Source: Candidatus Kapaibacterium sp. (lineage in GTDB: Bacteria; Bacteroidota; Ignavibacteria; Kapaibacteriales; WFXC01). From it: a DNA stretch of 46,885 nt. The stretch spans positions 1 through 46,885 of the forward strand of contig JALWJX010000077.1 in the NCBI GenBank assembly GCA_026996895.1, given 5' to 3'. The translations under genes and the position numbers were made by a program. Positions 10,730 to 28,363 of the stretch are shown here, one piece after another (the stretch's first letter is position 1; each line of letters starts with the position of its first letter). The notes below the pieces were generated by a model, which saw only the letters and a program-made list of their open reading frames with translations, ran no database searches and was not told the DNA's origin.

Positions 10730-13700
10730 ATGAAAACGCGTTCCATTCTTGTCTGGATGACCTTCCTTGTAATGTTCACTACGGCTCTTTCACAGGTATA
10801 TCAAGTTACGATGCGCCCGCGGCGGGCAGCAGATCAATTGTACGTGGAAATCTGGATCAAGTCGTTGACCAGCTCGGCCCCCAAACTGGGGGATGCATCC
10901 CTGGTAGTTCATTATAACAGTTCTTATTTGCAGCCTGCGGTAACCCAGGCACCATCCTCGACCGATTCGGTCCATTACAATGTGACGCAAGCAAACCCCA
11001 TCGTAACGATTACCTCGCAATTTCACGGTGCTAATGGGTATAACAATCTGGCGACCCAGGCTTATGGTGCACCCAGCGATGGGCTGTATTCGCTGGAAGT
11101 TCGGTTGGCTACCCTTGGATCTGGAGGAATACAGCCATCGTCAACCGGGCGCGGGAGCTTTGTAGGGAAATTGATTTTTGATATCATCAATACGCCGGAT
11201 ACAACGCAGGATGCAAACTTCCAGTGGAATACTTTGACTACTCTGGGTGATATTCGAATCTTTGATGTCGATGGAAACGATATTGAGAGTCAGGTGCAAT
11301 TTGTCAATCCTGGCAGTTTCCGAATTGTTGGCATTACCATTCTCAATCCGAATGGTCCCTCCGAAGTAGTCGATCGAGATGCTTCTTATTTGAATAACAC
11401 ATTAGTGGGCTATCCGATCTATTTTGAACGCAGTGGCTTTGCAGAGGATCAGGTAAGTTATGCAACGAATGCTACGGCATACGTGATTGAGATATCCCTT
11501 GATGGCGGAACGTCCTGGACAGAAGTAGGGCGTGTTGCGGAAACGACCTCGTCAACGGCTTCTCTGGTCAGTGGTGGGGTGCTGGCAAATCATGTATCGG
11601 GGGAAATTTCCACAACTGCTTCGACACACATTATCAGCACCTATACCGGAGCACCGTTGACATTATCCGCTTCAACGTATCGGAAGCCACTCCGTATTGT
11701 GTGGGCAACGAATCCTACCTTGGTGGCACGGTCAGAACAAGCACGACTTCGGATTACGCAACTGGATGAAACTGGATATAACAGTAACATTGCGACCAGA
11801 GGGCGGCTAACACCGTTTGATATTAGTGATGCAGATTTTGTGTATGGTCGAATTTTCTTCCTTCAGCTTGCAGGGAGTAGCAGTCAGGAATACTTTAAAA
11901 CTACCAAGAACTTCAGCACGCCCACGGAGTTTACAGTAGAGGCGTGGGTTAACCTGAATGAAGTTGTGAATGGAAATCCGGGTATTGTTGCTTCGAGTCC
12001 GGGTCCCGGAGCGCCGGAGGAAGGTGGATGGATTCTGTATTTGAAGGATGGAAAGTTTCCAGCCTTCCGGGTGCGAGAAGTACTGGGGCGTGGAACGAAT
12101 GGATACTTAGCGAATGTCGTAGCGTATGATTCTTTGATTGCAGTAAGTGATGCTGCTCCCTTAGGAAACAGTCATGCAGCTAACTGGCGTCACTTGGCGG
12201 CGGTGGTCAAAAATGATACCGTACGGCTGTTTCTGGATGGCGAAATAGCAGTAGAATATGTGAATACAAATGCTGCAGACATTCGACCGTTGCCAACGAA
12301 CCATCCGATTTGGGTAGGAGTAGATCCGAATAATACAACCAGTGCTACTATTCCAGCGGAAAATTACTTCCACGGTGGCATCAAGGGAGTTCGGATTTGG
12401 CGTTCTGCGTTGACCCAGGAAGAGCTCCGCCAGCGGGTTGCAGGCATTGATAATCCGACCAATACCAGTGGCACCGTGAATATTCTCAAGTCGCTGGAGC
12501 TCTACTTTAGTCTGGAAGGTACCAATACCGATTTAGCCAGTGAATCGTACTACCAGAATGGATCAGATACTTTGATTCACTATCTGGCGGGCAGCCGGAG
12601 TGACAATACGATTCGGTTTCGGCCAGATCTTCCGCATTTGCGCTTGACCGCCCCAGTTGGAGGGGAAGGTATTTCCAATCGACAAAATGTGACCTTTGAG
12701 GTGCGATGGGTCGGATATGGATTGAACAATGGGACAAACGCCACCGTGCAGATTGAGTACTCATTGGATAATTCGACGTGGAGTCATGCCTCATCGGCGA
12801 CTGGTACACCGCTCAACAGTGTTCTCTTAGGCAATGGCAGGACAACGTGGGAGCCTTATGAAAGTGCGGATCTCCGCAATTTGGCTGGTAGCGCTTATGC
12901 TGCGAACATCTGGGTGCGGATTCGGGGTGCTGTTGGGGGTGATACCAATGTGGTCTTTACCTCAGATGCAGCGACCGTGGCACCATACTTCTCGCTTTAC
13001 AAGAATAAATCTGACATTGTTGTGGTTGAAGATGGCAGTCCTTTTGCCATCACTGGCAATGATTTCTTTATCGAAGCCTGGATTCGACCGTATCGTTTCC
13101 CGACGGCTGCGGAGGGATATTTCCCCATCGTGAGTAAGGTGGATACAGCCCGGAAGTATCGTTATTATTCGCTGCGTCTTTTGTCGACCGGTCAACTGGA
13201 ATTCCGAATTACTGACACAGCGGGCGTAGAACGTATTGCAAGGAGCGATTCTACAAAGCCGCTGGAGAAACCATTGACCGTAAGCACAGATTCAGCCTGG
13301 ACGCACATTGGTGTCTATGTGAATCTGGGCAACGGTGGACAGTCGGATATTCGGTTCTATATCGACGGCGTGCCACAAAGCACTGATACTGCGATCACGA
13401 ACCAGTTAGGGAGCAGTCTGTATGTGAATATTAGCGACACCTCGGATTTCTACATTGGTTATGAGCCGAAGTTGGGTACGGGTGCTGATACGGTCGACGC
13501 TGGATTTATTGGAGAAATTCGGGAAATTCGGTTCTGGAAAGGATCTCCGAATTCTGAAAGTACTGCTGGAGCAGAACCAACATCGATGACTAAATTTGTT
13601 TGGGGAGCTCAGGCGGTCTACGGCAAAGATTTAACGTCGTCCTATAATGCCAATTTAGTCGCAGCGTTTGATTTCAACGGTGGGTCCTTCATTAACAACT

Positions 13701-16700
13701 CTGTCAATCGGAACTTTAACCGATCCTTTGCTTCCAGTAACAACAAGGTTATTGCTCGCTTCTATGGAGTGGACTCGTTGAAATTTGTAGCAAATGAGCC
13801 GTACATTAAAGTCGTAGAGCCAGTATTTAAGCAACAGGTAGTGAATACGACCGGTTCTACGGTTCGAGTCCGATGGGTTGGATTTCATTATACTGGCGTT
13901 ACCGGTGTTACCAGTGGATCTGTGGGTGTACCACCATCACTGGAATTTTCCATTCGAGGTGGTGGTGGAATGTTGATCCAGCCCTATCAATATGTCGGAA
14001 GTACATATTGGCATACAACCCAGACGATTGCATTTGCGCTGCCTTCCACCAGTGAGTATCGGTTTAACGGCACAGGTTCACCGGTTCAGTTTGCCGGAAG
14101 CTTAGATGCAGGATTGACCGATCCTGATCTGAATGATGATGGGGTGTATACCGATCAAGGTCCTATCGCGGCGGCTTTGACCAATGCCCGATTGCGCCTA
14201 AGTGTTACAACAGCAACAGTGATCGACACTGTGCGGGCAGAAAGCCCCTTGTTTACTGTGGTGCCGCGTGGTAACTTCACCGTGCGGGTATTACTGGAAG
14301 GATATCACATTGGAACTGGGGCAAATATTCAGGCCAATCTGGCTTCCACTTTTGAAAGTGGTGGATTGGTGATTAAGCTGTACAAAGATAATGCTGGATC
14401 GCCGGGACAGTTTATGGATTCTGCACTCTCGGTCAATGGGTATTCCGATTTGGATCCTGCCAATCGGAATGCTGGAAATAATAAGTATGCAAATGTACCG
14501 GTGCTCTTTACTACGATTCCCGAAGGAAACTACTGGGCGGTCGTGGATCATATCAACCACCTGCCGGTAATGTCCCGTCTTCCAGCGCCATTCCGTATTA
14601 GCGGTGACAATGAAGCTACCTGGGATATTGAATCGGGATGGGATTTCCAGACGTGGAATGGGACATCTGGAAATGTATTGCCCAGTACATGGGCGAATAT
14701 TACCATCACCACAGTACCATCCAGTGCGTGGCAAACAGCCGGCTATTACACGGCATATGGTCCGGCAGAAACCTCGCCGTCCGCTACTTACTATTCCAAT
14801 ACGGGACTGATCTACGATAATGGGCGGAATGGCGTTATTGGTGCCGTTGACGCTATTGCATCAATGGTAGCAGGTGATGTGGAACGAGATGGGCAGATCA
14901 ACGCTGCTGACCGGGTACGGGTGCGGTTGGATGCGGGAACAACGCTGGCGCGTTCAGATGTTACCGGTGATGGACAGGTGAATGCGACCGATCGCACCAT
15001 TGTCGATCGTAACTTCGGTAAGGTGTCCTCCATTTATGATGTGAGCTTTCCTGTTGGTATCCGACCGGCTGATTATGATCCGCTGGCAGTTGTATCGCCA
15101 GCCGATCCCTGGCGGTCTGAGAGGTTTAATGCGAACTATGAGCGATTTGCCAGCGCAGTGTTGACGCAAGAGATGGGTCCGGTCCACAAGGGTATTCGTT
15201 TAGGGAATTACGTGCTCAGTAATGGTGGAATTCAGTATCGTGTGCTAGCAGTTCCACGGCTTGTTGGCAATTACGTTGAGGTCGATGTGTACATCCAGAA
15301 TGAAGGGGAGCCATTTGCATTAGGTAATGCAACGTTCGCTTTGCAATACGATCCAACGAAGTTGCAGTTTCTGAATCTGTATAACACCAATGGTTCGCCG
15401 TTCCATAATAAGCCGCAGCGAGGGTATGCGCAAACGTATTCAGCACCGAAACCAGGATCGGACAAGCCGTTGCCCAATGTACGGACTATTGAGGTTGACT
15501 ATGACCAGTATGCACATCGTCCTGGCTCTCTGGTACCGGATTCCCCAACCTTATTGGGCACGTTGCGGTTTTTGATCAAGGATCGTTCTGGTATTATTAC
15601 TTTCCAGTGGTACGAAAGTACCGTGGTGCACACAACGGATGGGGCAAATGTCACCGATCAGGGTACCTTTGAGACCATTAAGCCGATCTTCTTCTTCACG
15701 GCTGAAGTTGTTGTTCCTAATGGTGGCGAGCAATGGCGTCCCAATCGTCCGTATCGGGTAAAATGGATCCATACGGGTGAAGAAAGCATCCGACTGCAAT
15801 ACTCCATCGATGGTGGCGAAACGTGGTACAACGTAGTGGATCAGGCACTGGATCCTGCAACGGGAGAGCTGTTGTGGACAGTGCCAGCCGGGATTGAGTC
15901 AGATCGCTGCCTGGTGCGTATCCTGGATGACTTTACAGGGATCGAGTTAGATCGGAGCGATGACTATTTCAGCATCGTGAGTGCCTATGCGCGAATTTTG
16001 AAACCTTCGGCTGATGATCCTGTATACTTCGGTGGTTCTACCGCTCAGATCCTCTGGGAAGCCAAAGGGCTGGATCAGGTGCAATTTGACTTCTCGCCGG
16101 ATGCCGGAAAGACCTGGGAAGTGAATACCTCGATCTTGAGCGCTTCGGCAAAGAACGCTTACTGGCGCGTGCCATTTGTCAATACCCGGCACGCACAGAT
16201 TCGGATGGTCGAAGTGCTGCCAGATGGATCTCGGGAAGTAATGGCAGTATCTGACGAGTTCCGTGTCCTGGCAGGACGCTTTACCTTTACCTATCCGCGA
16301 AAGGATGTCAGCTTGAAGGTTGGACAGGTTGCTCGAGTGCGGTGGACGATCCAGAACGCGGTGGAATACGTGGATATTCAGCTCAGTACTGATGATGGGG
16401 AAACCTGGACAACCGTAATGGCGAATGTGGATGCCAGCCGCCGTTACGTCGACTGGGTCGTGCCGCCGATGGAAGGCACCAAAACCGTTATTCTCCGCGC
16501 TATCTATCCGGGTGAACCTGCCCTGGAATATGACCGAACAGATCCATTTACTATCCAGGGAACCACCGAGGTTCCGGTAGCACAGCGCTACAGTGATATA
16601 ACACTGTACCAACCGCACCCGCAGCCGGCACACGATCAGCTTGTAGTGCGGTATGAGTTGCCAGAGCCAGTGCCTGTGGTGATCCGATTGCTGAATGTTG

Positions 16701-16858
16701 TCGGACGCCAGGTAGCAAAAGTAGCGACTCGAGAACTGAGTACGGCTGGCACTCACCGGATTACACTGGATGTCAGTATGCTACCGGCAGGCAGCTATAC
16801 GCTGGAGCTTCAAGCTGGCAATAAGCGGTATTACCAGCGTGTCCTCATTGTCCGCTAA
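10730..16858 (+). CDS. Giant secreted multidomain protein with cohesin-like, LamG, dockerin and T9SS sorting domains
   Basis: 2042-residue surface or secreted protein with a signal peptide (MKTRSILVWMTFLVMFTTALS). Approximate order: cohesin-like beta domain (22-200); Ig-like segments; LamG/concanavalin-like domain (377-600) with FTVEAWVNL; Ig-like (635-750); second LamG (754-985) with FFIEAWIRP; Ig-like (1025-1175); dockerin (1382-1431) with two calcium loops DVERDGQINAAD and DVTGDGQVNATD; second cohesin-like domain (1500-1655); three Ig-like repeats sharing the SxDGGETW pattern (1660-1945); and a C-terminal T9SS sorting-like domain (1960-2042) with PAHDQLVVRYELP and LPAGSYTLELQAGNKRYYQR. Probably exported by T9SS and attached to the cell surface; the ligand (polysaccharide, protein or other cells) is unknown. 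The ATG has an AGG at suitable distance. A terminator follows directly, so it is monocistronic. Confidence 0.92.
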   Translation: MKTRSILVWMTFLVMFTTALSQVYQVTMRPRRAADQLYVEIWIKSLTSSAPKLGDASLVVHYNSSYLQPAVTQAPSSTDSVHYNVTQANPIVTITSQFHGANGYNNLATQAYGAPSDGLYSLEVRLATLGSGGIQPSSTGRGSFVGKLIFDIINTPDTTQDANFQWNTLTTLGDIRIFDVDGNDIESQVQFVNPGSFRIVGITILNPNGPSEVVDRDASYLNNTLVGYPIYFERSGFAEDQVSYATNATAYVIEISLDGGTSWTEVGRVAETTSSTASLVSGGVLANHVSGEISTTASTHIISTYTGAPLTLSASTYRKPLRIVWATNPTLVARSEQARLRITQLDETGYNSNIATRGRLTPFDISDADFVYGRIFFLQLAGSSSQEYFKTTKNFSTPTEFTVEAWVNLNEVVNGNPGIVASSPGPGAPEEGGWILYLKDGKFPAFRVREVLGRGTNGYLANVVAYDSLIAVSDAAPLGNSHAANWRHLAAVVKNDTVRLFLDGEIAVEYVNTNAADIRPLPTNHPIWVGVDPNNTTSATIPAENYFHGGIKGVRIWRSALTQEELRQRVAGIDNPTNTSGTVNILKSLELYFSLEGTNTDLASESYYQNGSDTLIHYLAGSRSDNTIRFRPDLPHLRLTAPVGGEGISNRQNVTFEVRWVGYGLNNGTNATVQIEYSLDNSTWSHASSATGTPLNSVLLGNGRTTWEPYESADLRNLAGSAYAANIWVRIRGAVGGDTNVVFTSDAATVAPYFSLYKNKSDIVVVEDGSPFAITGNDFFIEAWIRPYRFPTAAEGYFPIVSKVDTARKYRYYSLRLLSTGQLEFRITDTAGVERIARSDSTKPLEKPLTVSTDSAWTHIGVYVNLGNGGQSDIRFYIDGVPQSTDTAITNQLGSSLYVNISDTSDFYIGYEPKLGTGADTVDAGFIGEIREIRFWKGSPNSESTAGAEPTSMTKFVWGAQAVYGKDLTSSYNANLVAAFDFNGGSFINNSVNRNFNRSFASSNNKVIARFYGVDSLKFVANEPYIKVVEPVFKQQVVNTTGSTVRVRWVGFHYTGVTGVTSGSVGVPPSLEFSIRGGGGMLIQPYQYVGSTYWHTTQTIAFALPSTSEYRFNGTGSPVQFAGSLDAGLTDPDLNDDGVYTDQGPIAAALTNARLRLSVTTATVIDTVRAESPLFTVVPRGNFTVRVLLEGYHIGTGANIQANLASTFESGGLVIKLYKDNAGSPGQFMDSALSVNGYSDLDPANRNAGNNKYANVPVLFTTIPEGNYWAVVDHINHLPVMSRLPAPFRISGDNEATWDIESGWDFQTWNGTSGNVLPSTWANITITTVPSSAWQTAGYYTAYGPAETSPSATYYSNTGLIYDNGRNGVIGAVDAIASMVAGDVERDGQINAADRVRVRLDAGTTLARSDVTGDGQVNATDRTIVDRNFGKVSSIYDVSFPVGIRPADYDPLAVVSPADPWRSERFNANYERFASAVLTQEMGPVHKGIRLGNYVLSNGGIQYRVLAVPRLVGNYVEVDVYIQNEGEPFALGNATFALQYDPTKLQFLNLYNTNGSPFHNKPQRGYAQTYSAPKPGSDKPLPNVRTIEVDYDQYAHRPGSLVPDSPTLLGTLRFLIKDRSGIITFQWYESTVVHTTDGANVTDQGTFETIKPIFFFTAEVVVPNGGEQWRPNRPYRVKWIHTGEESIRLQYSIDGGETWYNVVDQALDPATGELLWTVPAGIESDRCLVRILDDFTGIELDRSDDYFSIVSAYARILKPSADDPVYFGGSTAQILWEAKGLDQVQFDFSPDAGKTWEVNTSILSASAKNAYWRVPFVNTRHAQIRMVEVLPDGSREVMAVSDEFRVLAGRFTFTYPRKDVSLKVGQVARVRWTIQNAVEYVDIQLSTDDGETWTTVMANVDASRRYVDWVVPPMEGTKTVILRAIYPGEPALEYDRTDPFTIQGTTEVPVAQRYSDITLYQPHPQPAHDQLVVRYELPEPVPVVIRLLNVVGRQVAKVATRELSTAGTHRITLDVSMLPAGSYTLELQAGNKRYYQRVLIVR

Positions 16859-20437: not shown

Positions 20438-20466
20438 TTGTTAACGGTGTAAGTACGGGATAAAAT
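20438..20466 (+). promoter_or_regulatory. Promoter of the envelope cassette
   Basis: TTGTTA (20438-20443), a 17-bp spacer and TAAAAT (20461-20466), 31 bp upstream of the start codon of the first cassette gene. A TATAAT at about 20425-20430 is a second possible -10 but lacks a matching -35. Confidence 0.55.
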
Positions 20467-20497: not shown

Positions 20498-22744
20498 ATG
20501 GCAAAAGGTGGTGGTGCCGGGAAGGTGTATTTCGTGTTATATCTTGCGGTGATTCTGGAACTGTTGATTATCATTGTGGAGCGCGATGAAGCCGAAGAGA
20601 ACCTGATCCGTCGTCAGAAGGAGACGATGCGGATTGTAGAAAGTATCCTGGCGCAGTTGCAAATTGGCGCCGGGACCGAAGGCATTAGCACGCGTCCGCA
20701 GGATGAAATTACTTTGCAAGAGGTAAAGATTTCCGAGGGTCCGGAAATTAAGCAATGGCGGAAGTATTTTATTGAGGTTGGAGTTACTGATGTCGCGGCA
20801 GCGGCTGCGCAATTGGATCCGGAATCGGAAAACTATGAAGAAGAACTCCGGAAACTAATTCGATTAGGTAACGTAGAAGAGCTGGAATACCAGATTTTTT
20901 ACCATCCCAGTAATTCAGCTGAGCCACCGTATTTTCCTCCTGATGATAGCTTAAGAAATGTGGAATTTGACCAATTGAATCAGCCAGTTGGTCCGGTAGT
21001 TGACCGTGGGCAGTGGCGGCTGGTCTTTTTGCGTAAGCTGAAATTAGATCTTGAAAAGACCAAAGACTGGCAACATCCGGTGTATCAATACTACGTTAAA
21101 GAGTTGGGCTCAGCCAGAGACTTTGCGCCGGACTTTGCTGTGAAGAAAGACAGTATATTTGTGTACTCAGAGCAAGAAACGCAGCGATTAGCACAACTGG
21201 AAGGAGGGCGAATCCGGAAGCGAGCGTTCTTAGTATATTTCCAGCCACCGAATAAACCGGGATGGTATAAGTTACGTTTTGTTTCGCGCACAAATCGGAT
21301 TCTGGGAGTTACCGGCGATGTTGTATCGCCCGAGGAGTTGCCGCCCGATTTTACGGTCAATATTGGAACGGTCAAGCTGAAAATCAAGGATTTGCGAGTT
21401 GTGCAAAAAGAACTGCAGCGCTCTTTGGGTGCATTGAATTTACCCGGTGCGGAGGATCTGGCGCACGGCAAGCTGACTATTGAGGAATTTGGCCGGCTTT
21501 TGAACGAGGCAAAGCAGAAAGTGGTGAATGGCGAGATCAACCTGGATATGGAACCGACGGCGGTGATCAACAAGTTGGATCTGTACAGTTATATCGTTAA
21601 GTTGCTTACTCCCAATGCCTCGCAGTATTTTGAGCAGAATCGCCAGAGTTACCAGATTGACATTCGGGTGGTGAAGCCACCGATTACCATTGCAGAACCG
21701 TATGTGGAGCTTCCGGAAGCTATTTATACATTTGATGCGGTACCCATCATCTTTAACTTCGCTTCCGGTCCATTTCAAGGCAATAACTTCCCGACTGGCG
21801 AGGTGGTCGATCCTGCTACGTTGCAGGCATATCCTTTGATCATTCGACCAATCGATCAACAGGTAACGACGCAGCCAACAACACCAGGAACAGCCAAAGG
21901 TGGTAAGCGTTTTTATCAGGCGCGAACAGCAGAGCCAATTCCGCCGGGGACCTATGAAGTGCGGATTACGCAGACAAATATGGGGAAATCAACAGTGGGG
22001 AAAACGCCTCTGGAGGTGTTCGAAACAGGGTTGCAAGAGCAAAATCGGAAGGATTTAGAATTTCGATTGCGGAATATGTACTATGGGAATGCATTATTGC
22101 TCAATCTCAAACCAACCTCCGGGGGTAAGATTCCGGCGAAACAGTTCAAAATCTATGCACGGTTTGATCATGATCCGCAGACCCCGCCGATCCGAGGGCT
22201 GGATGCAAAAATACCACTGCCAGCGAAAGCGAATAATCTGTCACTTAAGTTAGTCTGGGAGCATCCATATACCGGCGATGAGGTAGAAATTCTTCCAGAA
22301 GTCACGCGTGAAATCAAGCAGGAACCACCGTACTTCCAGCTCCAAAATATGGGGGTATCGCAGCCGGAGTGGTTGTCTGGTGGGAAAGTTCGGCTCACAG
22401 TGCGAGATATCGATCTCATCTTACCATATATTGATACGGCTGGGAAGGTGGCAACGATGAAAGATGTGCAGGATCTGGGGGTGCAGAATGTGCAGTCAGA
22501 AGTTGCTGGATTTGAGGTCGATGAGGTGACTATTGAAGAGCAAGGGGAAGGCAAGGTGAAGTTGGATGTATTTCTCAAGGGCAAGATCCCGGCAGGTCAG
22601 CGATCGGTCAGTGGGAATGTTAGCATTACTATTGGTGCAAGGGTTCGCAATCCGATCAATGGCAAGGTTTCTGAACTTGGAATGGCAAGTATCAATATTC
22701 CCGTAGAATTGGAGCAGCAACGGCGGCGCCGCCGTCGACGCTAA
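20498..22744 (+). CDS. Membrane-anchored periplasmic protein, GldM/PorM-like architecture
   Basis: 748 residues. A single transmembrane helix lies near the N-terminus (about 10-27, VYFVLYLAVILELLIII), preceded by a short basic/glycine stretch, so the bulk is periplasmic. Residues 28-380 are helix-rich and charged; 390-740 look like successive beta-sandwich domains. It ends QQRRRRRRR. The layout (short cytoplasmic start, one helix, helical then beta domains) resembles GldM/PorM, the energy-transducing shaft of T9SS, and the window contains T9SS-type cargo. I see no decisive GldM motif and no GldL gene beside it, so function is an inference. First gene of a cassette with two barrel proteins, 63 nt ahead of the next gene. 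ATG with AGGAG at good spacing. Confidence 0.62.
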   Translation: MAKGGGAGKVYFVLYLAVILELLIIIVERDEAEENLIRRQKETMRIVESILAQLQIGAGTEGISTRPQDEITLQEVKISEGPEIKQWRKYFIEVGVTDVAAAAAQLDPESENYEEELRKLIRLGNVEELEYQIFYHPSNSAEPPYFPPDDSLRNVEFDQLNQPVGPVVDRGQWRLVFLRKLKLDLEKTKDWQHPVYQYYVKELGSARDFAPDFAVKKDSIFVYSEQETQRLAQLEGGRIRKRAFLVYFQPPNKPGWYKLRFVSRTNRILGVTGDVVSPEELPPDFTVNIGTVKLKIKDLRVVQKELQRSLGALNLPGAEDLAHGKLTIEEFGRLLNEAKQKVVNGEINLDMEPTAVINKLDLYSYIVKLLTPNASQYFEQNRQSYQIDIRVVKPPITIAEPYVELPEAIYTFDAVPIIFNFASGPFQGNNFPTGEVVDPATLQAYPLIIRPIDQQVTTQPTTPGTAKGGKRFYQARTAEPIPPGTYEVRITQTNMGKSTVGKTPLEVFETGLQEQNRKDLEFRLRNMYYGNALLLNLKPTSGGKIPAKQFKIYARFDHDPQTPPIRGLDAKIPLPAKANNLSLKLVWEHPYTGDEVEILPEVTREIKQEPPYFQLQNMGVSQPEWLSGGKVRLTVRDIDLILPYIDTAGKVATMKDVQDLGVQNVQSEVAGFEVDEVTIEEQGEGKVKLDVFLKGKIPAGQRSVSGNVSITIGARVRNPINGKVSELGMASINIPVELEQQRRRRRRR

Positions 22745-22807
22745 TGAGCCTGGATCATAGCAAGCAATGATACACTGGGAAAGCAACACAAAGAAGGACA
22801 GAGGACA

Positions 22808-24490
22808 ATGAGAATTTTTCAGCGAAGCGCTTTTTTGACGCTGCTGTATGCTTTGTTGATGATGAATGTGGCAGAATTGCCAGCGCAAAATGAGCTGAAG
22901 TCGATCCTGAAGTATTTTAAGAATTGGCGGTATGGGATGATTTCGCTGTATGATTTGCGCAATCCGACGCTGTCAAATGTGCGGAAACTACTAATACAGG
23001 AGGCAGGAGGCGGTGGAAATACGGCAGCGCTGGATACGCTGGATCCTGCTTTGCGCACCGCTGTAGAGCGGGCAGCACGGCTGAGCGGGGGCGTGAAAAG
23101 TCGGGCGATTCAGCAGTTGATGAATCAGGGGGTAGACCTGACACCGGCTATCGATGCAGCATTAGAGGAAGCAATCCGGCGATTGCAGGGACCAAGTAAG
23201 CGGATTGAAAACGTGTACATTGTTACGACCAGGGAATCAAAGGAAAACTTCCCTCCCGTCATCATTGCAATGATTGTTTCTTCACGGGGCAAGGCATATG
23301 TAGAGGATAATTTGCGTGCTGTACAGGAGGATGACATCTACACCATTGACGAGTTGCGGAGTATGACACTCGATACGTCGTATGGTGCCAGTACCCTGTA
23401 CGAGTATCTGGAAAATGCGATTGTGCAGGGAGCGGTGCGGAATGTAACGGCGGAAGCGCAGGGCATCGGAGACATTTTTACGAACTTTGCACCCAAAGTA
23501 TATGGGATCAGCGAGCCGCTGGAAACCTCACCAGACGATCCGTCCGACGTCGATATTCAGCGATATATGCGGGTATCGGAAGGGCAGGCATTAGATTATG
23601 CCCGACCGCAGGAAGTGCGGCTGAGTTACGATGTCATTAGCTATCGGCGTTATCCAGTTCCGGAAGATCTGGATTCGGCAACCTTAGCTGAAGGCTTGTT
23701 TGTGTTTAATGAAACCCTGCCCGAATATGGACTGGCTGTTCGCTATGGACTGGAGGAAATCAACTATCCTTCGCTGTGGAGCGAACGTCTGGCAGTGATG
23801 GCAATGTGGCAAAATGTCCAGTTGGGCGTAGTGCTGCCAACCCCCGGTTGGGCGTCGCTGGCATCCACGCTGGGGCAGGAGCGGAAACTGACATATGCTG
23901 GCTGGGGCGTGCAGGGAATGTTCGATTTCCCCATTCGCTTGATTCCTCGCAGCGGTGTTTTTCATCTGGGATTTAGTTATGTTTTCGATGACGCGCAGCC
24001 CAGTCCTTATAAAAATCGGAATACCGATCCCCTGACGTTTCGCGAAGATCCTGCTGATAATGATTACCTGATCCGTGCCCACGGGCAGCTGCATTACACC
24101 TTTGGAATGACCATTGATGAAGATCACTTACTACGCCTGGGACTTGGGGCTACCGTCTATGCACTGGAGTACTGGCGATATCAGCTTAAACAGCCGGAGG
24201 ATCCACGGGAAGATGTCAAGGTGGTGTTTCGTCGTGCGAAGACCGAAACGGTTGGAGGTATTTCCGGACGGCTGGAGTATATGGCGCGAAAATTCCCCAC
24301 ACCTTTTGGTGGCAGCATACAGTACTTTGATGAAGCATTGTCCTTTGGCGCATGGCTTCAGGTTCCTGTTATTGCTCAGGTTGCAGTGCGCCTGGATGCA
24401 AAGGCATACATCGTTGCTTTCCGGGATCCGCATCCGTGGGAGAACAAAAGCGTGTTCATTCCCTCATTGAGCTTTGTGTTGAACTTTTAA
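22808..24490 (+). CDS. Unknown outer-membrane protein with N-terminal helical domain and barrel
   Basis: 560 residues with a signal peptide (residues 1-26, ending ELPAQN). Residues 27-270 look mixed alpha/beta, including SLYDLRNPTLSNVRKLL and a stretch ENVYIVTTRES; residues 290-560 have the alternating pattern of a beta-barrel and end PSLSFVLNF, with a terminal phenylalanine. I do not recognise the family. The gene lies 63 nt after the membrane-anchored protein and 14 nt before another barrel protein, so the three are probably an operon. It may be an outer-membrane partner of the first gene's product. Start ATG at 22808 follows an AGAGGA site. Confidence 0.6.
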   Translation: MRIFQRSAFLTLLYALLMMNVAELPAQNELKSILKYFKNWRYGMISLYDLRNPTLSNVRKLLIQEAGGGGNTAALDTLDPALRTAVERAARLSGGVKSRAIQQLMNQGVDLTPAIDAALEEAIRRLQGPSKRIENVYIVTTRESKENFPPVIIAMIVSSRGKAYVEDNLRAVQEDDIYTIDELRSMTLDTSYGASTLYEYLENAIVQGAVRNVTAEAQGIGDIFTNFAPKVYGISEPLETSPDDPSDVDIQRYMRVSEGQALDYARPQEVRLSYDVISYRRYPVPEDLDSATLAEGLFVFNETLPEYGLAVRYGLEEINYPSLWSERLAVMAMWQNVQLGVVLPTPGWASLASTLGQERKLTYAGWGVQGMFDFPIRLIPRSGVFHLGFSYVFDDAQPSPYKNRNTDPLTFREDPADNDYLIRAHGQLHYTFGMTIDEDHLLRLGLGATVYALEYWRYQLKQPEDPREDVKVVFRRAKTETVGGISGRLEYMARKFPTPFGGSIQYFDEALSFGAWLQVPVIAQVAVRLDAKAYIVAFRDPHPWENKSVFIPSLSFVLNF

Positions 24491-24504
24491 AAGGGTTGTG
24501 AGCA

Positions 24505-25941
24505 ATGAAGGTGCAGAAAGTATTGGTGGTGTTCCTTGGAATTGGTTTGTTTGCGATCGCTCTGCTCTCGTCGGTCTCTGCCCAGGTGGTGGATCGCAAA
24601 GAGCTTATTGCAGCGTTAAAAACGATCGACACGAATATTGTCAAATATTTCCCTCGCTGGCGAATTTGCGAGCGTGATTTGCAGATCCAGATTTACCAGA
24701 CCTTTCTGCTGTTTGGCTATCCCAAGGAAAATCTGGATATGAACAACATTATCGTTACCGCAGCTCCGAAAGTGGAGCCGGGAATGCCCTACACACTGCT
24801 GCTGGTGGAGTGTGGCAGTGAAAAGATGGTTGCATCGGAAATTGATGCTTATATGGAGCGACTGGCAACAATTATTAGTGGTGATGTTGTCTACTCCGGT
24901 CCCTACAAAGGGGAGCCGGCAGATGGTAAACGAACATATTGCTACGAAGATATTCCACCGGAAATTCCGCCCACCGAAGCGCAGGCGGAAGCGATTATCA
25001 ATTTCCTGGAACCGACCGATGTGGATCACGCTTTTACACTATCCGTTTTTGAACAGGGATTGAAAATTGGAGATTCCGGGTTCTGGCTGCGGGCAAAATT
25101 AGGGACCGATGAAGTGGGGTATCACTTCTGGTCAGCAGGCGAGGCAAAGATTCTGTTGAAACGTCCCCTGATTGTGAATACGAATATGCAAACCCACAAG
25201 GCGATTCCGTTTCTGCTCAATGCTTATTTAGGTGGTGGATACCGATTAACCAGTGGGTTGGATCCCGGAAGTACGCTGTTTGAATTTGTTCCCGCTCGCC
25301 GGCTCAATGCTGGACCGGGTGGCAAAATTGTCGGTGGCTTTGAGTTCTTCCTTCCACTGCATCCTGCCTTTGGTGTCCGAACGAACATCGAAATTCCATT
25401 GCAAAGTGCAAATGGACAACAGATCAACCCGAAAACGTACGCAAAGTACCGGCGTTCTGGTGTGCAGTTTATTCGAGGTGGAGATCCTACCCGGCGCATT
25501 ATTGGTATCGCCCCATTGCTGCGAAGTACAGGGCAGATAGCATTGTTTTATCACTGGTGGATCAATCCAGCTGCACCGGAAAACTTCTTCCGTCTGGACT
25601 TAGGCGTTAGCTACGCTGAAATTCAGGAAATGGCAGTGGTTCGGGATACCAGCGGCGTTGTCCGTTTGCAACGTTCCGGCATCGCCGGGCTGCGAACGTA
25701 TCATCCGGATGAGTTCCTGGATTGGCTCTATGCTCGCTTAGAGTATCGGCATCAATCTTCGTATCCGTTCGGCGTCAGCGTTCAATTTTCTAACCAGATC
25801 CTGCTGGTGCACGGATATTTACCCATCGTTGGACGCTGGCTCTATCTGGAAGGCAAATATGCAACGCCGCTGCGTGATGCTTATCCGTTTGAGGTAAAGA
25901 ACTTTTTTATGCTCTCTCCGGTGTTGCGCCTGACGCTGTAG
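24505..25941 (+). CDS. Unknown outer-membrane protein, second barrel of the cassette
   Basis: 478 residues with a signal peptide (MKVQKVLVVFLGIGLFAIALL, cleavage probably after SVSA). An N-terminal soluble domain (about 28-235) contains two cysteines (RICERD and LVECGSE) and a third at TYCYED; the remainder (about 236-478) is barrel-like, rich in Gly, Tyr and aromatic pairs, ending LSPVLRLTL. Not recognised as a named family. It has the same overall plan as its upstream neighbour (soluble domain followed by barrel) although I see no clear sequence identity. Only 14 nt separate the two genes, indicating co-expression. The start ATG has GGGTTGTGAG upstream. Confidence 0.6.
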   Translation: MKVQKVLVVFLGIGLFAIALLSSVSAQVVDRKELIAALKTIDTNIVKYFPRWRICERDLQIQIYQTFLLFGYPKENLDMNNIIVTAAPKVEPGMPYTLLLVECGSEKMVASEIDAYMERLATIISGDVVYSGPYKGEPADGKRTYCYEDIPPEIPPTEAQAEAIINFLEPTDVDHAFTLSVFEQGLKIGDSGFWLRAKLGTDEVGYHFWSAGEAKILLKRPLIVNTNMQTHKAIPFLLNAYLGGGYRLTSGLDPGSTLFEFVPARRLNAGPGGKIVGGFEFFLPLHPAFGVRTNIEIPLQSANGQQINPKTYAKYRRSGVQFIRGGDPTRRIIGIAPLLRSTGQIALFYHWWINPAAPENFFRLDLGVSYAEIQEMAVVRDTSGVVRLQRSGIAGLRTYHPDEFLDWLYARLEYRHQSSYPFGVSVQFSNQILLVHGYLPIVGRWLYLEGKYATPLRDAYPFEVKNFFMLSPVLRLTL

Positions 25942-26156
25942 CCATAAAAGCTGTTGAGAGGCCGGTGCCGTTGTGGTAACAGTGCGTTTGCTCCCTGAAA
26001 TTATCACTGGCAGGGGAGAGCAGACGGGTGTAAAAGGGTGGAGTAGGTCACGGATAGCAAAGCGGAGTGGGAAGCATTTCTGGTTTGCTTGCATTTCAAC
26101 AATTTCCAACACCGATCGTCAAAGACCACGTTTTGGAGTATAAAAACGGAGAGGCC

Positions 26157-26528
26157 ATGCGGGGTTATAGTGTCAATCCAATTGAAGTTCGTCGCAAAGC
26201 CGCTCAGGAACACGGTGTTTACGCTTCGCTGGTGGCAATTTCCAAACGTGCCAACGGCATTATGGCGGAAATTAAGGAGCATATTTATGCCAAGTTGGCA
26301 CCCTACCTGGAACTTGGCGGAGAGAATTCCGATGATGAAGATGATACGATCGATCACGAACAGTTAGAAATTTCCAAAGAATTCGATACCATTCCCAAGC
26401 CGACCATCCTGGCAATGAAAGAATTCCTGGAAGACAGGTTGAAGTTCCGCATCGAGGAGAAAGAAGAGCCGCAGCGTCGACGTATTCGCCGTGTTCGTCG
26501 GCGAGGACGTCGTCGGTATCGGCGGTGA
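26157..26528 (+). CDS. rpoZ: RNA polymerase omega subunit with arginine-rich C-terminal tail
   Basis: 123 residues. It matches Bacteroidota-type omega (RpoZ/Rpb6): VYASLVAISKRANGIMAEIK corresponds to the conserved block that clamps the beta' subunit, and EISKEFDTIPKPTILAMKEFL is the C-terminal block of this lineage's omega. The ATG at 26157 is preferred over an in-frame GTG at 26067 because it has GGAGAGG upstream and fits the family length. Located upstream of coaBC, a neighbourhood seen in many bacteria, though here a terminator lies between them. Unusual: an acidic insert (SDDEDDTIDHE) and a C-terminal tail RRRIRRVRRRGRRRYRR that standard omega lacks. Confidence 0.88.
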   Translation: MRGYSVNPIEVRRKAAQEHGVYASLVAISKRANGIMAEIKEHIYAKLAPYLELGGENSDDEDDTIDHEQLEISKEFDTIPKPTILAMKEFLEDRLKFRIEEKEEPQRRRIRRVRRRGRRRYRR

Positions 26529-26563: not shown

Positions 26564-26597
26564 AAAGCACCAGTGAATTGCTGGTGCTTTTTTGTTT
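26564..26597 (+). terminator. Rho-independent terminator after rpoZ
   Basis: Perfect 10-bp stem AAAGCACCAG / CTGGTGCTTT, loop TGAATTG, followed by TTTGTTT. It lies 36 bp after the rpoZ stop. Confidence 0.9.
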
Positions 26598-26968: not shown

Positions 26969-28363
26969 ATGAGCAAACGCATCCTTTTAGGGGTCAGTGG
27001 GAGCATTGCCGCTTACAAAGTTCCCTGGCTGATTCGAGATTTACAGCGGGCAGACTGGCAGGTGCGGGTCGTGTTGACGCCAACGGCTGCCCGGTTTGTA
27101 TCTCCACTGGTACTGGAGAATTTAACGCGTACCCTGGTCCCGGTGGATTCTTTTGACCCCCGGCTGCAACCGGCAGCTTCGTGGCATGTCCATTGGGCAC
27201 GATGGGCAGATGTGATGATCATCGCTCCAGTTTCTTTGACCACCTTAGGAAAGCTGGTAGCAGGTATCGCTGATACGCCCGTGACTCTGACAGCTCTGTC
27301 TTTACCCGCCACAACGCCGCTGGGATGTGTACCAGCGATGGATGTGGAAATGTGGAAACATCCTGTTACCCGGCATAAAGTTGCCACGCTGCAGCAATGG
27401 GGGGTGCACTTTTTGATGCCAGAGGAAGGGGCTTTAGCCAGTGGTTTAGAAGGTGTTGGACGCTTGTCGCAAATTGAGGCTATCGTCGCGTTCGCAGAGC
27501 AGTTGCTCCAGCAGCGTTCGAGCGCACATTACCTGTCTGAAGGTGACGTTCAGCAGCAGGAGCAGCCAGCAGCGCAACAGAAGAAAAGTCCACTTGAAAC
27601 CCTTCTGGAACAGCCGACGGAAACGCTGGACGAAAGGGTAGAACAGCGGCAATTCGAAACAGATCTGGAGTGGACAGAATTCCAGCGGCGTCATTCTGTT
27701 TTGAAGGGTAAAACGGTTGTTATCACCGCCGGACCGACATACGAACCCATTGATCCTGTTCGATTTATCGGCAATCCATCGACAGGGACAATGGGCTATG
27801 CGCTGGCAGCAGAAGCGGTGCGGCGGGGTGCAAAGGTGATCCTGGTGTCCGGACCAACCCATCAGATGCCTCCGGATGGTGTGAAAGTCGTACGAGTACA
27901 AACAGCAGATGAAATGCATCAGGCTGTGCTCCAGCATTGGGATACGGCAGATGTGTTTATCGGCGCCGCAGCGGTAGCTGATTTTACTCCCGTGGAACCA
28001 GCAGAAACCAAGCTCAAGAAGGAGGGAAAGTCGGAACTGATACTCCGATTGAAACGAACGCCGGATATTCTGGAAGCCGTTGGAAAATCGAAGCAGCAGC
28101 ATCAGATAGTCGTTGGTTTTGCACTGGAAACCGATGACGGAGTAGAGGCGGCAAAGGAAAAGCTGAAGAAAAAGAATTGCGACTTCGTAGTCCTCAATTA
28201 CGCCAACCGTCCAGATAGTGGATTCGGAGAGGGGAAAAATACCATTACCATCGTGACGCCTGAGCGGGTGCAATCATACCCGCCGATGAGCAAGCAGGAG
28301 TGCGCTCAGGTAATTCTCAATCAGGTGGAGCAAATCGTACGGCAACACGTGCAAAAGCAGTGA
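26969..28363 (+). CDS. coaBC: Bifunctional phosphopantothenate-cysteine ligase / phosphopantothenoylcysteine decarboxylase
   Basis: Coenzyme A biosynthesis: CoaB joins cysteine to 4'-phosphopantothenate and CoaC decarboxylates the product using FMN. 464 residues. CoaC spans about 1-178 (ILLGVSGSIAAYKVP, the catalytic His75 in HVHWARWAD, VPAMDVEMW, ALASGLEGVGRL). CoaB spans about 245-464 (KTVVITAGPTYEPIDPVRF, NPSTGTMGYALA, AETKLKKEGKSELILRL). Two residues differ from E. coli Dfp: Asp125 in place of the Asn of PAMN, and Ser158 in place of the active-site Cys. From memory, similar PAMD and LASG forms occur in Bacteroidota. A 65-residue Gln/Glu-rich linker between the halves is unusually long. 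Strong ribosome binding site GGAAGGGAAG. Its stop overlaps the next gene's GTG start. Confidence 0.95.
   Translation: MSKRILLGVSGSIAAYKVPWLIRDLQRADWQVRVVLTPTAARFVSPLVLENLTRTLVPVDSFDPRLQPAASWHVHWARWADVMIIAPVSLTTLGKLVAGIADTPVTLTALSLPATTPLGCVPAMDVEMWKHPVTRHKVATLQQWGVHFLMPEEGALASGLEGVGRLSQIEAIVAFAEQLLQQRSSAHYLSEGDVQQQEQPAAQQKKSPLETLLEQPTETLDERVEQRQFETDLEWTEFQRRHSVLKGKTVVITAGPTYEPIDPVRFIGNPSTGTMGYALAAEAVRRGAKVILVSGPTHQMPPDGVKVVRVQTADEMHQAVLQHWDTADVFIGAAAVADFTPVEPAETKLKKEGKSELILRLKRTPDILEAVGKSKQQHQIVVGFALETDDGVEAAKEKLKKKNCDFVVLNYANRPDSGFGEGKNTITIVTPERVQSYPPMSKQECAQVILNQVEQIVRQHVQKQ

Follow-up and report, generated by a model that had tools for sequence, protein, structure and literature searches.

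A conserved three-gene envelope cassette in Kapabacteria and its probable relation to GldLM-type motors

The three genes and their products

Contig JALWJX010000077.1 of Candidatus Kapaibacterium sp. (C77 in our numbering; 46,885 nucleotides, referred to below as the window) belongs to a genome of 2.73 Mb and carries on its forward strand a cassette of three genes, here named P1, P2, and P3. They encode proteins of 748 (positions 20498–22744), 560 (22808–24490), and 478 amino acids (24505–25941) and are separated by gaps of 63 and 14 nt. A previous reading of this DNA, made from the letters alone (the sequence-only reading), had suggested that the genes form one envelope-spanning machine with a GldM-like periplasmic shaft, and its open reading frames and spacings proved to be exact. 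The ratios of nonsynonymous to synonymous substitution rates, calculated against two close relatives, are 0.02–0.06, so that P1–P3 are real protein-coding genes under strong purifying selection. Neither the single proteins nor their alignments gave a convincing match in Pfam, NCBIfam, or the PDB sequences. As argued below, these genes probably encode parts of a divergent motor of the GldLM type, in which P1 is the axle and P2 and P3 form the outer-membrane end. It most likely serves type 9 secretion or the movement of surface adhesins. The strongest evidence lies outside the window. In related families, the corresponding operon is headed by a GldL-like gene, and most Kapabacteria have such a gene right beside one for a PorU-like sortase.

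P1 contains only one hydrophobic segment, which hydropathy places near residues 10–28 (20525–20581, forward strand; VYFVLYLAVILELLIIIVE, followed by R29–D30). The AlphaFold2 model of P1 (mean predicted local distance difference test score, pLDDT, 84.6) begins with one helix (residues 6–56), continues with a mixed alpha/beta part (about 68–380), and ends in beta domains that extend to residue 739. The secondary structure of residues 382–739 (21641–22714) and the Foldseek results are read as about three immunoglobulin (Ig)-like domains in tandem. The single helix and the beta domains are those foreseen by the sequence-only reading; the helical domains that it had placed between them are alpha/beta instead. 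The transmembrane helix is the most conserved part of the protein, with Y11, F12, L14–L16, L22–L23, I25, and E28–D30 invariant in the alignment. P1 thus shares with GldM a single N-terminal transmembrane helix reaching into the periplasm, while the resemblance of the periplasmic part to the GldM layout is confined to D2–D4.

P3 is a secreted protein, whose AlphaFold2 model (mean pLDDT 80.1) begins with a signal helix and continues with a small alpha/beta domain at residues 43–131 (24631–24897), which has a highly conserved YFPRW at 48–52, and a predicted outer-membrane barrel of about 12–13 strands at residues 183–477 (25051–25935). Its top 50 structural matches in the PDB were outer-membrane beta-barrels of many kinds, none of them significant. 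P2, also secreted, possesses an N-terminal soluble region and a C-terminal stretch (residues 416–556; 24053–24475) homologous to the barrel of P3 (hhalign 97%, P 8e-11); on the strength of this homology, P2 is predicted to end in an outer-membrane barrel as well. The architecture of a soluble N-terminus and a C-terminal barrel, suggested earlier for both proteins, was therefore recovered in P3 by modeling and in P2 by homology. The two barrels belong to no recognized family, as the sequence-only reading had suspected, and P2 and P3 did not match the GldN and PorP/SprF families. Since the structural matches of P1 are generic Ig tandems and those of P3 generic barrels, no family can be named at the level of the fold.

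Gene order in relatives and GldL-like proteins

The conservation of the cassette was surveyed in 198 Bacteroidota genomes, with 16–21 kb read around each match. Genes in the relatives are mechanical longest-reading-frame calls, and the counts of conservation and adjacency given here concern related genomes rather than independent events. P1 was found in all 16 sampled genomes of the same order, in two loci at 97–98% identity, and weaker matches were present in other families of the class. The gene order P1–P2–P3 is kept across families and was the same in every locus from the taxonomic order of the window, with contig ends cutting P2 or P3 in two of them, which upholds the earlier proposal of one envelope unit. 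In most relatives, P3 is followed on its 3' side by a gene for a VWA-OmpA protein. The orthologue in the window's genome (55% identity) is located on another contig, unlinked to the cassette.

The operons of the Ignavibacteria type begin with a short, two-helix GldL-like gene, located immediately 5' of the GldM-like gene. Next come the GldM1-like gene, whose product has a helix and a short domain, another gene for a secreted protein, and two barrel genes; this pair is sometimes present twice. Over the first 47 columns, P1 shows homology to the GldM1-like protein (hhalign 97.8%). The placement of a GldL-like gene immediately 5' of the GldM-like gene and the barrel genes was found in three further families (relatives in f7, f8, and f12). 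Genome G055 has three separate GldL-GldM-barrel-barrel operons (L091, L195, and L196). In two of these, the GldM-like gene is fused and the two barrel genes match P2 and P3; the third is of the split form. A profile built from the second barrel protein of the Ignavibacteria-type operons does not reach the barrels of Kapabacteria, G128, and G164, which are more distant. Among the genomes with such an operon, it detected its target in 8 of 9, and it found none in the 20 tested class genomes that have no GldL-like protein. The single exception, G140, carries a different barrel gene.

The GldL-like core was detected in 27 of the 198 genomes, all from the class of the window. Its hallmarks are two core helices, a GAA motif, a K/R 11 residues on, and a Glu in the second helix, which is invariant (24/24). 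The layout and spacing of these hallmarks are the same as in canonical GldL, and the invariant Glu corresponds to E49 of GldL, a strictly conserved and essential residue (PMC8986121).

Kapabacteria possess three types of GldL-like proteins, mutually related by BLAST: type A of about 450 amino acids and type B of about 330 amino acids, each with four predicted helices, and type C of about 270 amino acids with two helices. Type C is paired with its own GldM-like gene (GldM-C, about 500 amino acids). Each of the three is encoded in the window's genome, where they occur on contigs C67, C108, and C29. In profile comparison with canonical GldL, type C matched at hhalign 83–85% (P 6e-6 to 1e-5), and the mixed GldL-like core at 29% (P 6e-4). 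In the calibration of this comparison against other multi-helix families, the three GldL-like clusters ranked above the single unrelated one, a weak control given only four clusters. The match between GldM-C and GldM was collinear but weak (hhalign P 0.0017), and a short GldL-like profile gave only chance helical matches among the PDB sequences.

Several further observations were made on these genes. Types A and B (L081:7091-8446, L082:8864-9853, and L083:8301-9824) carry, in addition to the core, a cytoplasmic domain and a further two helices at the N-terminus, which gives them a MotA-like, four-helix layout. In the window's genome, GldL-B is followed by a gene for an AAA_16-type ATPase, and in family f3 a related gene follows it (L082:6855-8867; L085:9645-14456). 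The GldL-C/GldM-C pair (L145:298-1851 and 1855-2736, on contig C29 of the window's genome) lies beside genes that resemble FtsX and LptF/G by eye. Family f26 (L151–L153) has a divergent canonical-type cluster of GldL and a GldM of 380 amino acids, whose match to the GldM model is limited to the second half and so leaves out D1; in L151, the gene 3' of GldM looks GldN-like by eye.

The type 9 secretion setting

SprA scored over the cut-off in all 42 class genomes tested. Canonical GldL (TIGR03513) and GldN did so in none of these 42, and the canonical GldM model, applied to the whole phylum, matched 48 other Bacteroidota genomes over the cut-off and no genome of the class. Outside the class, the GldN model found its target in G170 and G166 and not in two other searched genomes of the phylum. 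Standard annotation thus gives no answer as to how SprA is energized in Kapabacteria and Ignavibacteria, since the tested GldL, GldM, and GldN models find nothing there. The most likely explanation is that the motor parts are so divergent that these standard family models miss them across the class. Our literature search revealed no paper that connects GldM and Ignavibacteria; for Kapabacteria, type IX secretion was mentioned in passing only.

The window's genome possesses SprA, PorU-type C25 sortases, and sorting-domain cargo, a setting that fits type 9 secretion. At least 53 sorting-domain matches exceeded the cut-off singly and one more did so only when taken together with its neighbors in the reading frame, which bears out the earlier statement that the genome encodes cargo of this kind. 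One of the many cargo candidates is located in the window itself, a 2042-amino-acid protein (10730–16858) with a type A sorting domain over the cut-off.

In 12 of the 15 Kapabacteria with a readable flank, the next gene 3' of GldL-A, on the same strand, codes for a C25 PorU-like sortase; the arrangement spans four families. Full-length C25 genes number only two per Kapabacterial genome. In one genome, the long C25 sortase gene that elsewhere adjoins GldL-A sits just upstream of SprA (G192:C43:65932-76091). Also, 16 SprA-positive genomes of the class, for example G124 and G132, have no detectable GldL, GldM, GldN, GldL-like protein, or P1-type module.

A divergent GldLM-type motor and its alternatives

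The likeness of the cassette to GldLM/PorLM concerns several features. The GldL-like ring protein shares the two-helix core, the GAA motif, and the conserved glutamate of the second transmembrane helix. P1 contributes a single helix, acidic residues just after it, and a periplasmic shaft of several domains, the last of them Ig-like. The Ignavibacteria-type operons retain the L-then-M gene order, and the host genomes are of the SprA/PorU type. There are also differences: nothing scored over the cut-off for TIGR03513, TIGR03517, TIGR03523, or PF12081, P1 is about 235 amino acids longer than GldM, the shaft protein is split into two genes in several families, Kapabacterial GldL-A and GldL-B are extended at the N-terminus, and GldN was not found in the class genomes. 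At the outer membrane, P2 and P3 occupy the gene positions after the shaft in the manner of GldK/GldN (PorK/PorN) and PorP/PorG, but are barrels with fused soluble domains. The fourth gene in relatives resembles PorE in ending with an OmpA-type peptidoglycan-binding domain, but differs in that a VWA domain precedes OmpA, the match to PorE covers the OmpA domain only, and the gene is unlinked in the window's genome.

The conservation of the genes, the operons with GldL-like genes in other families, the GldL hallmark residues, the barrel homology of P2 and P3, and the co-occurrence with SprA are observed. In the model that we infer, including its ring stoichiometry, its rotation, the contact of P1 with P2 and P3, and the cargo or process driven, a P1 dimer would act as axle and as periplasmic shaft in a proton-driven motor. 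The membrane ring would be formed by GldL-like proteins encoded elsewhere in the window's genome. Proton flow past the conserved second-helix Glu of GldL would turn or bend the P1 helices, and the alpha/beta and Ig-like shaft would pass this motion over the periplasm to the soluble domains of P2 and P3. These paralogous barrels may take the place of GldK/GldN and of the outer-membrane parts of the classical machine, and the VWA-OmpA protein probably clamps the motor to peptidoglycan.

Several observations weigh against this interpretation. P1 and its relatives were not matched by the TIGR03517 and PF12081 models, and the comparison of P1 with the canonical GldM profile was not significant (hhalign P 0.06), also after the divergent GldM proteins of family f26 had been added. 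The helical D1 is absent from the P1 model, where alpha/beta follows the helix and is succeeded by Ig-like domains, and no GldM or PorM chain was among the 50 best structural matches of P1. Given the lack of a significant sequence match and of a helical D1, P1 does not qualify as a member of the GldM family; what stands of the proposed GldM likeness is the shaft layout. Moreover, no GldL-like gene is linked to P1 in the window's genome, and the partner is likewise unlinked in Kapabacteria. The window's genome also lacks a sortase gene beside GldL-A, as do G192 and G196. The 16 SprA-positive class genomes devoid of any GldL-like protein indicate that SprA does not depend on the module throughout the class. 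Finally, the second pair of Kapabacteria, GldL-C/GldM-C, includes a GldL that is closer to canonical GldL; this pair might be the actual motor of the type 9 secretion system (T9SS). The sequence-only reading, which was to be refuted only by the lack of a GldM D1–D4 fold together with a lack of conserved linkage, is partly supported: the linkage is very strongly conserved, while the helical D1 is missing.

These objections lead to a possible but rather doubtful alternative, in which GldL-C/GldM-C energizes type 9 secretion in Kapabacteria, and P1, GldL-A/B, and P2/P3 form a separate motor of the GldLM superfamily driving some other outer-membrane transport or surface movement. Two distinct motor pairs do occur side by side in Kapabacteria, GldL-C scores best against canonical GldL, the P1-type module is missing from the 16 genomes mentioned above, and P2 and P3 are unmatched by the outer-membrane families of T9SS. 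The PorU-like sortase, however, adjoins GldL-A and not GldL-C, most module-bearing genomes of the Ignavibacteria type have SprA and only the P1-type GldL, and no alternative cargo is apparent. In its broader form, which we regard as unlikely though worth considering, Kapabacteria and part of the Ignavibacteria would possess an unrecognized proton-driven machine of this superfamily with its own barrel pair, distinct from the T9SS motor (and alongside it in Kapabacteria), whose four-helix GldL links GldLM to MotA-like motors.

An energizer or envelope-integrity complex of the TolQR/ExbBD kind, with no rotary shaft and with P1 pulling or tethering P2 and P3, for example in lipid or polysaccharide traffic, appears improbable. 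All 5:2 motors combine a multi-helix ring protein with a one-helix periplasmic partner (PMC9389320), and the four predicted helices of Kapabacterial GldL-A and GldL-B recall MotA, but neither P1 nor the tested GldL-like proteins matched the Pfam models of MotA/ExbB/TolQ and ExbD/TolR, and the hallmark spacing and profile score favor GldL. We assign a very low probability to an unrelated tri-gene assembly, such as one for capsule or pilus export, whose likeness to GldM would stem from the common plan of one helix and Ig-like domains. The generic Ig tandems matched by P1 and the lack of a significant sequence link to GldM would fit such an assembly; the co-occurrence of the GldL-like gene with the barrels, and its first place in the operon of several families, would not. 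The preferred reading, a divergent GldLM-type motor, is assigned to type 9 secretion or gliding on the basis of the sortase linkage and SprA; this role is not proven, in view of the 16 SprA-positive genomes without the module and of the second motor pair in Kapabacteria.

If correct, this reading identifies the motor that had been missing in much of the class and implies that the GldN-based outer-membrane end has been replaced by a pair of barrel proteins. The four-helix GldL relatives would be candidates for an evolutionary link from the GldLM motors to the MotAB/ExbBD families. At the same time, a new gap is exposed, namely SprA-positive relatives with no recognizable motor.

As for the flanks of the cassette, the promoter of its own that had been claimed for it amounts to a single weak consensus match 5' of P1 (TTGTTA-17-TAAAAT, 20438–20466, forward strand), which is not evidence of function by itself; the scan of the region returned 12 matches versus 6.5 expected. 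Directly 3' of the cassette lies a small gene (26067–26528) with a weak match to the RNA polymerase omega subunit (Rpb6), and a CoaBC gene (26969–28363) is located further 3'. A meaningful operon of the cassette with these rpoZ-like and coaBC genes was rejected, as the adjacency is kept only in two near-identical relatives. Terminator-like stem-loops were about as frequent as by chance (7 versus 7.3); the one with the longest stem, of 12 pairs, is located 3' of the small gene (26564–26590, forward strand) and may mark the end of a transcript.

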